From Umboniibacter marinipuniceus (lineage in GTDB: Bacteria; Pseudomonadota; Gammaproteobacteria; Pseudomonadales; DSM-25080), in the NCBI RefSeq assembly GCF_003688415.1, contig NZ_REFJ01000001.1, positions 1-64,000 on the forward strand: a stretch of DNA of 64,000 nucleotides, read 5' to 3'. This document shows, one piece after another, positions 9,250-13,056 of this stretch; position 1 is the stretch's first letter, and every line of letters starts with the position of its first letter. The notes under the pieces were generated by a model, which saw only the letters and a list, made by a program, of their open reading frames with translations, made no database searches and had not been told where the DNA came from. Position numbers and translations under genes: made by a program.

Positions 9250-11339
9250 GCGTTAGCGAAAACTTCTGCTCCAGCGAGCCAGCGGTCTATTAGCGACTGC
9301 GCTCGCTCGGGGTATTGCTGCAGGAACTGCGCGGTTAATTCAGCCACATCGTCTAAGTGGTAGCTATCGCGCTCTAGATTCGCAATCTTAAAGCTGGCAT
9401 CTCCAGTCTGGCGAGTACCTAACAGCTCACCCGCACCGCGCAACTCAAGGTCTTTTTCCGCAATGACGAAACCATCGGTACTCTCGCGCATCACTCCCAG
9501 ACGCGCTTTACCGTTTTGAGATAGGGGTGTTGAGTACATCAGAATACAGAAACTTTCTCGTGTACCACGCCCCACTCGACCTCGCAGCTGATGAAGCTGA
9601 GACAGCCCTAAGCGCTCAGGGTTCTCAATAATCATAACGGAAGCATTGGGCACATCTACACCCACTTCAATTACTGTGGTAGCAACCAGCAAGTGATGCT
9701 TTTTAGCCTTAAAATCTGCCATTACCTGTGCCTTTTCACTGGCTTTCATTCGCCCATGCACTAACGCAATCGAAAGCGATGGCAGTGCCGCTTGAAGTAG
9801 CTGACAGGTTTCTTCAGCCGCTTCGGCCTCTACCGCTTCAGACTCATCAATTAAGGTGCAAACCCAGTAGGCCTGCTGACCACCAGCGCAGGCGGCATTG
9901 ACACGTTCAACAACCTCTTCGCGACGTTGATTGCTCACCAGTAAGGTTTGAATGGGAGTGCGTCCAGGTGGCAGCTCATCTATAACGGAGCAATCTAGAT
10001 CGGCATAGGCGGTCATGGCCAGCGTACGAGGAATGGGGGTAGCGGTCATGATCAGTTGGTGTGGCGCACAGCCACTTTCAATACCCCTTTGGCGCAACGC
10101 CAACCGCTGATCAACACCGAAGCGGTGCTGTTCGTCAATGACCGCAAGGGCGAGCTGATGATATACCACATCAGGCTGAAAGACCGCGTGAGTACCGACA
10201 ATCAGCTTAGCACTGCCATCGGCAATCTGAACCAGCGTCTCTCTGCGTTGCTTAACGCCAATCTTCCCCGCCAACCAAACAACCTCGACGCCCAAGGGCG
10301 CCAACCATTCCTTAAAGCTCAGGTAGTGCTGTTCGGCCAGAATTTCGGTTGGTGCCATCACTACGGCTTGCGAACCCTTAGCCACGGCATGGAGCGCGCT
10401 AATGACGGCCACAACCGTTTTGCCTGAACCTACATCACCCTGGACAAGCCTAAGCATTGCCTCAGTTCGATTCAGGTCGGCACTAATTTCACCCACTACT
10501 CGGGCCTGCGCATTAGTTAGCTGGAAACTCAACTGACCCAAAAAGCTGGCTTCGAGCTTTTCTGGCCGAGGCAATGCCAGCGCCCCCTCTCGACGGTACT
10601 CTGTACGAAGCTTCAGCATACTCAAGCGATGCGCAATCAATTCTTCGATCACTAGCCGTTGAATTGCTGGATGACTACCTTCGGTAAGATCCTGAGTGGA
10701 AACATCCGGGGTTGGTTTATGAATAAGTTGCAGCGCGGCACTCAGCGATGGCAGTCCTCGAGCGCTGGTCATTGAGACTGGTAAAAGTTGATCAACTTCA
10801 AGTGTTCCAAGGCGCTCAAGCGCTTGGTCGGCGAGACTCCGCATTCGTGCTTGAGGTAATCCGTCAGTGGTGGGATAAATGGCCGTCAGCCGATCCGCTA
10901 GCGGGGGCATCGCGTCACCCTCACTAACAATTTTCATCTCTGGGTGGTACATCTCTAGGCTAGAGGAGCCCCGACGGGCTTCGCCCCAAGCTTGCAAATT
11001 GGTTCCTGGCGTGAGTTGCTGCCTGAGGTTAGCGCCAAAACGAAAGAACCTTAGGGCAATTTGCCCCGAGCCATCTTTGACAACTATCCGCAATGCCCTG
11101 CGACGACCAAACACCACCTCACAGGAAACCACTTCGGCCTGAATGAGCACATGATCGCCAAGACGTATATGGCCAATTGGGCAAACTCGAGTTCGATCTT
11201 CATACCGTGCTGGCAAATGAAATAGTACATCTTGCAGCGAATGGATGTGAATCTTGGCAAGCTTTTCCGTCAGCGCCTTGCCTACTCCTTTCAGCTCGCT
11301 GACGGGGACCTGCGCTATTGAGGTTTGTTCAATGGACAT
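9246..11339 (-). CDS. recG: ATP-dependent DNA helicase RecG
   Basis: A 697-residue superfamily-2 helicase that reverses stalled forks and branch-migrates Holliday junctions. An N-terminal wedge (OB-type) domain covers about residues 10-150. The helicase core has Walker A GDVGSGKT at 301-308, DEQH at 402-405 and the SAT-like TATPIPRTLA. The C-terminal helicase half carries VATTVIEVGVDVPNA and QLRGRVGRG, the last being the TRG/QxxGRxGR region. Length matches E. coli (693). Its start overlaps the end of oxyR by 25 bp, so the two are cotranscribed, as in Pseudomonas where recG follows oxyR. Confidence 0.98.
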   Translation of the reverse strand: MSIEQTSIAQVPVSELKGVGKALTEKLAKIHIHSLQDVLFHLPARYEDRTRVCPIGHIRLGDHVLIQAEVVSCEVVFGRRRALRIVVKDGSGQIALRFFRFGANLRQQLTPGTNLQAWGEARRGSSSLEMYHPEMKIVSEGDAMPPLADRLTAIYPTTDGLPQARMRSLADQALERLGTLEVDQLLPVSMTSARGLPSLSAALQLIHKPTPDVSTQDLTEGSHPAIQRLVIEELIAHRLSMLKLRTEYRREGALALPRPEKLEASFLGQLSFQLTNAQARVVGEISADLNRTEAMLRLVQGDVGSGKTVVAVISALHAVAKGSQAVVMAPTEILAEQHYLSFKEWLAPLGVEVVWLAGKIGVKQRRETLVQIADGSAKLIVGTHAVFQPDVVYHQLALAVIDEQHRFGVDQRLALRQRGIESGCAPHQLIMTATPIPRTLAMTAYADLDCSVIDELPPGRTPIQTLLVSNQRREEVVERVNAACAGGQQAYWVCTLIDESEAVEAEAAEETCQLLQAALPSLSIALVHGRMKASEKAQVMADFKAKKHHLLVATTVIEVGVDVPNASVMIIENPERLGLSQLHQLRGRVGRGTRESFCILMYSTPLSQNGKARLGVMRESTDGFVIAEKDLELRGAGELLGTRQTGDASFKIANLERDSYHLDDVAELTAQFLQQYPERAQSLIDRWLAGAEVFANA

Positions 11340-12232
11340 AACAGCGCCGCTTGTTTTAGGGCCATCACCGCCTCGCGACGAGTGAAGCTTGCGCGATATG
11401 CCAGCGCAATCGTACGACTGGGATCTGGAGCAGTAAACGGCCGCACTTCCAACATTCCAGCTTGATAATTCGACAGATCAGCGGCACTAGCCGGGAGGAT
11501 AGTGATGCCGAGCCCCGACGCGACCATATGACGCAAGGTCTCAATGGAGCTACCCTCGCCACCTAGCATGGCATCTTTACGCCGCTCGAAGGATTGTTGG
11601 ATAACGGGATCAACCGCTAGCACCTGATCACGGAAACAGTGTCCGTCGCCCAAGAAGAGGATATTTTCGTTGGCAAGCTGAGCGGGAGCGATTTCAGCTT
11701 TTTCCGCTAATGGATGACCTGCCGGTAAGAGCACCACAAATCGTTCGTCATATAAAGGTTCTACAATCACATCGGGTTCTGAGAATGGCAGCGCAATGAT
11801 GATCACATCTAACGCGCCTTCTCTGAGTTGCTTACGGAGTACCGCGGTATAGTTTTCTTCAATTACCAGCGGCATCTTCGGTGCGATATCACGAAGCTGC
11901 GGTATACAGAATGGGAAGAGATAGGGCCCAACGGTGAGGATGGCGCCAACCTTAAGCGGTGAGGCTAGCTGATCCTGCCCCTGTTCAGCTAGCTGTTTAA
12001 TCTCTAACGCACCACTGAGTACTTTTCGAGCTTGCTGAGCTACCTGCTCGCCCACGGGCGTTAAGCTTACTTGATTTCGCGTTCGCTCGAATAAGGAGAC
12101 ATCTAACTCCTGCTCCAACTTTTTGATTGCGATACTCAACGTAGGCTGGCTCACAAAACACTTTTCCGCGGCGCGGCCGAAGTGTTGCTCCTCGGCAAGC
12201 GTGACGACATACCGTAATTCGTTTAAAGTCAT
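11315..12232 (-). CDS. oxyR: LysR-type peroxide regulator OxyR, lacking Cys208
   Basis: A 305-residue LysR-type regulator that is clearly OxyR. It has the N-terminal helix-turn-helix (residues 17-40, ending in VSQPTLSIAIKKLE), and the redox loop reads GDGHCFRDQ with Cys199, His198 and Arg201 at the E. coli numbering. In E. coli and Pseudomonas the second redox residue is Cys208; here the following residues are VLAVDPV and position 208 is Asp. The other cysteines are Cys25, Cys109 and Cys299. Disulfide activation through 199-208 is therefore impossible in its usual form. The gene is divergent from the epimerase-like gene (26 bp gap) and overlaps recG. Confidence 0.93.
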   Translation of the reverse strand: MTLNELRYVVTLAEEQHFGRAAEKCFVSQPTLSIAIKKLEQELDVSLFERTRNQVSLTPVGEQVAQQARKVLSGALEIKQLAEQGQDQLASPLKVGAILTVGPYLFPFCIPQLRDIAPKMPLVIEENYTAVLRKQLREGALDVIIIALPFSEPDVIVEPLYDERFVVLLPAGHPLAEKAEIAPAQLANENILFLGDGHCFRDQVLAVDPVIQQSFERRKDAMLGGEGSSIETLRHMVASGLGITILPASAADLSNYQAGMLEVRPFTAPDPSRTIALAYRASFTRREAVMALKQAALLCPLNKPQ

Positions 12233-12258
12233 GGCATCATCCGTATTGGGCTAGCATT

Positions 12259-13056
12259 ATGTTGAGTGGGAAAAACCTGTACCTTTTGGGATATGGTGAC
12301 ATATTACGACGCGTGTATCACCTGCAAAAACCGATAGCTAATCGTATCATTACCTTTAGTCGCAATATTGATCAGCACCCTGAGCCAGAAAACGCCATCG
12401 CTGCCGAGCTAGGCACTGGCCGTGATTGGCAATTGCCTCATCAGGACGAACAGTCAGTTGTCATATATACGCCCACGCCTTCCGAGCGATCCATTGCTGG
12501 CTATCAGCAGGGCTATATTAAAAGTTGTGAAGAGCTACTTGGCCGGCTAAAGCCAACGACGTGGCTAATTTTAGTTTCCAGTACTCGGGTATATCGAGGG
12601 CAGCAACTCAGTATCGTCGACGATACCACCCAACCATTAGCGGCCGATGAATTTGGGCAGGTATTAATTGATATGGAGGCGCTTGTCACCGCCAACCATG
12701 CCAACACGATTATTGTCCGCCCCAGCGGAATTTATGGCCGCTCTACCGCTCGATGGGAGCGCCTCATGGAACACCCTGAGCTCACTGGAAATAGGCTGGG
12801 CAACCGCATTCATGCCGACGACCTAGCGCGGTTCCTTAGCTTTCTTATCGACAAGATTCCAGCGTGCAAGACTAATCAGTTCATTGTGACCGACGGCGAA
12901 CCCGCTAGTGAGTCGCAGGTTGTGGATTATCTCTTAGGCTTAACGAGGGATCTTCCCTCCGAGGGTATCGCGCTACAAGCAACGGCTTTGACGAAGAGTG
13001 GCTTCGAGCTGCATTACCCTAGCTACCGCAAGGGCTTGCTAGCGCTTAAACGCTAG
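12259..13056 (+). CDS. NAD-dependent epimerase/dehydratase-like protein (YeeZ type)
   Basis: A 265-residue extended short-chain dehydrogenase-like protein. The N-terminal motif [12 protein letters not shown] occupies the place of the Rossmann GxGxxG but is only partly conserved, as in YeeZ-type proteins. Later family features are [10 protein letters not shown] (the beta strand and Ser/Thr near the active site), VRPSGIYGR and [10 protein letters not shown]. The catalytic YxxxK is not evident, so an enzymatic role is uncertain. It starts 26 bp from oxyR on the opposite strand with no clear ribosome site, and its last 11 bp overlap the convergent ridA within a perfect palindrome. Confidence 0.65.

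Follow-up and report, generated by a model that had tools for sequence, protein, structure and literature searches.

A probable working OxyR without Cys208 in Umboniibacter marinipuniceus, and the recurrence of Cys199-only OxyRs

Results

The OxyR of Umboniibacter marinipuniceus retains the peroxidatic Cys199 and carries an aspartate at the place of the resolving Cys208, and judged from its sequence the classical Cys199-Cys208 disulfide is excluded. It is probably a working OxyR that makes no use of this bond, given the purifying selection on the gene, the pocket residues that it has kept, its pairing with recG, and the candidate boxes at katG and ahpC. We lean slightly towards reading it as an orthologous OxyR that would still control katG and ahpC, has lost the resolving cysteine, and would switch independently of a disulfide through an adduct on Cys199. 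The wider claim, that a natural and recurrent class of Cys199-only OxyRs senses peroxide without any resolving cysteine and signals through such an adduct, is put forward more tentatively.

The gene and its locus

The window, by which we mean the whole 64-kb stretch analysed, comes from U. marinipuniceus, whose genome (labelled G000) spans 2.69 Mb in 16 contigs and is 99.4% complete. The features of the window are listed here, with row counts that refer to the 147-row alignment described below.

11315..12232, minus strand: oxyR, 305 aa, the sole close OxyR found in the G000 genome
9246..11339, minus strand: recG, with a 25 bp overlap with the end of oxyR
11636..11638, minus strand: Cys199 codon (TGT), the peroxidatic cysteine in GHC-FRDQ, by translation and alignment
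11609..11611, minus strand: Asp208 codon (GAT), where a 2-Cys OxyR has the resolving Cys208, by translation and alignments
11906..11908, minus strand: Cys109 codon; Cys in 3/3 genus members and in a single further row of the 147, L012
12158..12160, minus strand: Cys25 codon, in the DNA-binding domain; Cys in 145/147 rows
11336..11338, minus strand: Cys299 codon, near the C terminus; Cys in 107/147 rows and in 7/17 Cys199-only proteins

The product, whose N-terminus reads MTLNELRYVVTLAEEQHFGRAAEKCFVSQPTLS, had full-length P. aeruginosa OxyR 4x6g as its best phmmer match (residues 1-305, E 1.9e-110), and OxyR chains made up the first 11 of the best 18 rows. The NCBIfam OxyR equivalog NF008361 was the best family, yet its 232.8 bits fell below the cut-off of 329. 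At E 1e-15, the G000 genome held, besides oxyR, two LysR proteins only, which are 28% and 25% identical, and a back-up 2-Cys OxyR elsewhere in the genome was rejected on these grounds. The oxyR-recG pair is present in the window, and oxyR is presumably linked to recG in P. aeruginosa as well. Across the loci compared, whose flanks are unequal in length, recG adjoins oxyR in 17/17 Cys199-only loci vs 108/128 Cys208 loci. On the other side of oxyR, a gap of just 26 bp (12233-12258) separates it from a divergent plus-strand ORF (12259-13056), a putative NAD-dependent epimerase-like gene by its look. No OxyR-type box with one mismatch or fewer was found in 10901-12700, which leaves oxyR autoregulation unsupported.

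The redox loop reads GHCFRDQVLAVDPVIQQSF, with the peroxidatic cysteine in GHC199FRDQ and the substituted position in VLAVD208PVIQQSF. In the alignment to P. aeruginosa OxyR 4y0m, the aspartate falls exactly on Cys208 (GHCFRDQVLEACP), and position 208 falls likewise on C208 of E. coli OxyR. Translation and these alignments bear out a preliminary description of the window, which had reported Cys199, Asp at 208 (GAT on the minus strand), cysteines at 25, 109, 199, and 299, and the impossibility of the Cys199-Cys208 disulfide. With Asp208, the protein falls outside the 2-Cys OxyRs as defined by a resolving Cys208. The Cys199 pocket, taking its residues as described in PMC8787470 and PMC2881104, is present with His198, Thr100, Thr129, and Arg273, the last aligning with Arg266 of E. 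coli OxyR. The same description had offered pairing of Cys199 with Cys25, Cys109, or Cys299; the first and last are less likely partners because both are mostly found in ordinary 2-Cys OxyRs too, while Cys109 stays a candidate. In N. meningitidis OxyR, the C-terminal Cys is described as lying on the face opposite C199/C208 (PMC2881104), and Cys299, being a cysteine in only seven of the 17 Cys199-only proteins, cannot be a general replacement.

An AlphaFold2 model of the window OxyR, built from 23 sequences, reached a pLDDT of 88.1 and a pTM of 0.71. OxyR structures occupied 17 of the best 18 rows among its structural neighbours (row 16 was BenM), so the protein has a LysR-type fold with OxyR as its nearest solved relatives. 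The nearest was P. aeruginosa 4x6g (Z 29.5), followed by the reduced P. aeruginosa domain 4y0m (Z 28.8, 1.5 A), reduced N. meningitidis OxyR 3jv9 (Z 27.4), and E. coli OxyR in the reduced 1i69 (Z 24.8, 2.2 A) and oxidised 1i6a (Z 22.6, 2.5 A) forms. The modelled regulatory domain is nearer to reduced 4y0m than to oxidised 1i6a, a comparison in which the species differ too and AlphaFold may mirror learned structures. Modelling of both the oxidised and reduced folds had been suggested earlier; this single model is reduced-like and silent on the oxidised state. Its helices span 102-116, which holds Cys109, 199-205, and 209-221, and the latter two resemble helices C199-S207 and A212-Q218 described for reduced N. 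meningitidis OxyR (PMC2881104).

Conservation and selection in the genus

A search of 56 genomes, G000 included, found two further members of the genus, G002 and G001. The G002 OxyR is 93% identical to the window OxyR and has Asp208 with the same GAT codon, while that of G001 is 69% identical and has His208. The G001 protein is identical to the OxyR of the metagenome-assembled genome (MAG) HF-Din29 (L033), and the two are therefore probably one genome. All three genus members keep Cys199 and lack Cys208 (D, D, H), so the alignment of related OxyRs, proposed in the preliminary description as a check, makes the absence of Cys208 a trait of the genus, with Asp in two species and His in the third.

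Between G000 and G002, oxyR has a pS of 0.746, which is saturated, and a pN of 0.042; the oxyR of this genus is under strong purifying selection. Since Asp208 was retained while silent sites became saturated, it has outlasted that saturation. A sequencing error at codon 208 was rejected as very unlikely, with the identical GAT in a separate species and His in G001, and a pseudogene or decaying gene was rejected on the intact frame and the pS and pN values. With these observations against it, an artefact or decaying gene is the most improbable of the explanations considered and can practically be dismissed.

Recurrence across OxyRs

An order-wide search of 390 genomes gave 262 with a match at E 1e-75. 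Proteins were taken from 122 of these 262, along with two weaker ones from the 56-genome search and those from 23 of 69 named contigs (tblastn, 1e-40). The resulting set comprises 147 proteins, one pair being identical; the alignment, which also includes E. coli OxyR, has 147 rows. The proteins were picked for genus breadth and best score, so percentages in this set are not natural frequencies.

Cys208 was missing in 17 of the 146 rows that bear Cys199, with the residues D (2), H (1), S (2), T (1), N (1), L (8), and M (2) at position 208. What had been described as the oddity of one protein is instead a recurrent state. The Cys199-only proteins come from the window genus (3), family f42 (9/9 read), family f25 (1/2 g25 species read), f14 (1/2 read), f10 (1/1 read), and two Burkholderiaceae, one uncultured and the other Formosimonas limnophila; both g72 species read in f25 have Cys208. 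The sole row without Cys199 is L053 3001-3801, from a Hyphomicrobiaceae MAG, an OxyR-like protein (37% identical) with Gln at the place of Cys199 and Cys at 208, the arrangement described for Deinococcus.

Trees were built with the redox loop omitted, a quick one of 146 rows and a careful one of 65 rows, and parsimony required at least six changes at position 208 on either. The count itself is silent on loss versus gain, and the direction seems to be loss because this position is Cys in E. coli OxyR and in the large majority of rows. The careful tree supports four origins well. L176 groups with the Cys208 row L008 (100/96), and L198 with L189, which likewise has Cys208 (100/99); the two Burkholderiaceae (100/100) have three Cys208 rows as neighbours (100/97), and the f42 clade (100/97) adjoins f25 (98/91), most of which has Cys208. 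Judging from these placements, Cys208 seems to have been lost several times in OxyR evolution. The window genus forms a clade at 100/100, and both it and L026 sit on a poorly resolved backbone. Neither L026 (p 0.411) nor f42 (p 0.172) was rejected by AU tests as a partner of the genus, so the independence of its own loss is not proven.

The 17 Cys199-only proteins all have His198, Thr129, Gln203, Ser229, and Arg273. Thr100 is found in 15 of them (Ser in 2) and Arg201 in 12 (Gly in 4, Lys in 1), while Pro209 is present in 17/17 vs 120/129 Cys208 rows. The 147-row alignment revealed no extra cysteine common to the 17. It had been pointed out in the preliminary description that a compensating cysteine in the same loop of relatives would overturn its reading; 3/3 genus members have none, and among the 17 only L181 has another loop Cys, at 213, so a compensating loop cysteine common to relatives was rejected. 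Loop length did not mark the loss, with 26-30 residues (median 29) in Cys199-only proteins vs 22-34 (median 28) in Cys208 proteins. Among columns 60-299 that are at least 80% conserved in Cys208 rows, only 193 and 289 deviated along with Cys208 in at least three lineages, both mildly. In f42 and f14, the residue at 208 is hydrophobic; in the window genus (Asp, with His in G001) and in f25, f10, and the Burkholderiaceae, it is of the helix-cap type and precedes Pro. In the model, residue 208 would cap or pack helix 209-221.

Candidate boxes at katG and ahpC

Scans used ATAGNTNNNANCTAT, which we take to be the consensus of OxyR-type boxes. G000 encodes a single KatG, a 740-codon frame with two PF00141 domains, and one PF10417 peroxiredoxin, here called ahpC. 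No PF00199 catalase match was found in G000 or G001, and no PF00141 match in G001, which is 87% complete. A perfect candidate box (L219 2822-2836) ends 98 bp before the start of G000 katG and is one of three perfect sites in the 2.69 Mb; in G002, a one-mismatch candidate lies 97 bp before katG. Before ahpC, candidate boxes with 1, 1, and 2 mismatches lie at 113, 114, and 116 bp in G000, G002, and G001, respectively. The other two perfect sites in G000 lie between divergent ORFs (L225 3178-3192; G000:C4:255677-255691) and at the junction of two minus-strand ORFs (L224 3313-3327; G000:C4:64312-64326).

As a control, 491 overlapping 260-bp stretches of the 64-kb window contained no perfect site, and two of them, sharing one site, had a one-mismatch match. 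Across the G000 genome, the scan at up to one mismatch found 75 places, exactly as many as the reversed-motif control, and in 11 other genomes there were 20 perfect boxes vs 36 for that control. Because the counts are no higher than in the control, only the position before katG and ahpC carries weight. Random 260-bp stretches of katG and ahpC loci, true sites included, had a perfect match in 0.7%, one mismatch in 1.2%, two in 9.8%, and three in 43%; given the last two rates, two- and three-mismatch sites mean little.

Beyond the genus, the Cys199-only genome G121 (Ser208) has its sole perfect box in 2.0 Mb 112 bp before katG. The Cys199-only G011 (Ser208) has ATAG-N6-CTAT-N7-ATAG-N7-CTAA about 100 bp before katG, with the spacing judged by eye; measured against the fixed 15-mer, it has three mismatches. 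In the Cys199-only genomes of f42 and f14, the best sites had 2-4 mismatches before katG and 2-3 before ahpC, and two Cys208 genomes, G026 and G056, likewise lacked a good box, with 2-4 mismatches at the genes found. On these motif matches, the link to the regulon would appear good in the window genus and fair in f25; it is suggestive for f10 and unsupported for both f42 and f14. The weak or absent boxes in the latter two families and the control-level genome counts weigh against the reading that we favour. The earlier suggestion to look for OxyR sites at catalase and ahpC genes was thus rewarded with candidate boxes at katG and ahpC in the genus, and not with any genome-wide excess.

Two other observations were made at these loci. 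In both G000 (L221 2895-3212) and G002 (L222 2126-2443), a putative glutaredoxin-like ORF, monothiol by its look, lies a short way upstream of ahpC and is oriented like it; this ORF is a candidate reductant for an OxyR mixed disulfide. G002 also encodes a PF00199 catalase-domain protein (L226, G002:C6:15500-20500, 1931-2896), whose ORF start is signal-peptide-like and whose matched frame has one TAA that may be its own stop.

Discussion

Mechanism and alternatives

The most likely signal in the window protein would be Cys199 itself. H2O2 or reactive sulfur or thiol species would modify Cys199 in its conserved pocket, the reaction with H2O2 being likely in view of the kept pocket residues. Cys199 would first become a sulfenic acid, which would probably go on to form a mixed disulfide with glutathione or another small thiol, or else a persulfide. 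This adduct, in place of the Cys199-Cys208 bond, would drive Cys199 out of the pocket and alter the dimer, while position 208, followed by Pro209, would only cap or pack the start of the next helix. A precedent is P. aeruginosa OxyR, whose persulfidated Cys199 (Cys199-SSH) has been termed a "single-Cys activated state" (PMC13295329). Published mutants count against such a disulfide-independent switch, since in the papers cited here engineered loss of Cys208 cripples 2-Cys OxyRs: E. coli C208S is reported to lose polysulfide induction (PMC6831875), P. aeruginosa C208A to hold wild-type basal katA/ahpC with no H2O2 response (PMC13295329), and N. meningitidis C208A to repress but not activate (PMC2881104). 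As the literature points both ways, two alternatives, a redox-blind regulator and a disulfide through Cys109, are given substantial weight.

The C208A phenotypes of P. aeruginosa and N. meningitidis are what would be expected if the window protein were redox-blind, staying reduced-like and either constantly repressing katG and ahpC or activating them at a basal level, and the reduced fold could gain stability from helix-capping residues at 208. We consider this unlikely, yet the strongest of the alternatives. Cys199 and His198 are kept in 17/17 Cys199-only proteins and would be needless as a sensor in a redox-blind protein; this argument is a weak one, because Cys199 mutants of P. aeruginosa and N. 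meningitidis are reported also to lose DNA binding or repression (PMC13295329, PMC2881104). A locked protein, an option raised in the preliminary description, has some probability, but the strong purifying selection and the candidate OxyR-type boxes at katG and ahpC favour a regulator in use. Somewhat less probable still is an alternative disulfide that replaces Cys208, either Cys199-Cys109 in the same or the neighbouring subunit, or Cys109 bridging two subunits. Its near restriction to the genus and its place in a predicted helix next to 110, described as a hydrophobic-core position of OxyR (PMC2225504), speak for Cys109, but the other 14 Cys199-only proteins lack it and have no extra cysteine in common, and L012 carries it along with Cys208.

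Cys199 persulfidation is reported to activate or tune OxyR in E. coli (PMC6831875) and P. aeruginosa (PMC13295329), and the window protein could by extension be a specialised sulfane-sulfur sensor, with Cys199-SSH as the main signal and H2O2 secondary. We hold this to be quite improbable, as the E. coli C208S mutant lost the polysulfide response as well and the candidate targets here are peroxide scavengers. The reading that we favour by a little is thus the disulfide-independent switch through a Cys199 adduct.

Comparison with known systems

Whether OxyR is switched by the disulfide or by modified Cys199 alone (SOH, S-NO, S-SG, or S-SH) has been disputed since the early 2000s, with Kim et al. 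on one side and Lee et al. on the other (PMC2881104), and the tests described in the cited papers relied on point mutants of 2-Cys OxyRs, which are impaired (PMC2881104, PMC6831875, PMC13295329). Among the papers listed by searches of an open-access library, which leaves out most subscription papers, none described a natural Cys199-only OxyR, so one may exist in print. The natural losses of Cys208 alone, with a good katG box in two lineages and a variant in a third, offer a direct test of the need for the disulfide. If our reading is true, the OxyR disulfide, held to be the heart of the switch, is dispensable and has been given up several times, and Cys199-only OxyRs could provide a peroxide sensor that is reset by a different cellular reductant.

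The 2-Cys OxyR of P. aeruginosa (4x6g, 4y0m) has the same fold as the window protein, 59% identity in the structural alignment, the same Cys199 pocket residues, and a matching C-terminal Cys; the window protein differs from it in having no Cys208 and three more residues between Cys199 and the SSLET motif. D. radiodurans DrOxyR, the "1-Cys OxyR" (PMC2225504), also has a single redox-loop Cys and hence no Cys199-Cys208 bond. It is reported to be 31% identical to E. coli OxyR, with sulfenic acid shown on its lone cysteine (PMC2225504), which is C210, the counterpart of Cys208 (PMC2881104). The T201C mutation is described as having "put the missing cysteine back" (PMC2225504), which places Thr201 at the position of Cys199. 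The Deinococcus arrangement, a lone Cys at the place of 208 and none at 199, is not that of the window protein, which is its mirror image as far as published descriptions place DrOxyR: it keeps Cys199 and lacks Cys208. The engineered C208S and C208A mutants of E. coli, N. meningitidis, and P. aeruginosa have the same redox-loop cysteine content as the window protein; they are impaired versions of proteins selected for disulfide use, whereas the window protein and its relatives occur naturally and have been maintained.
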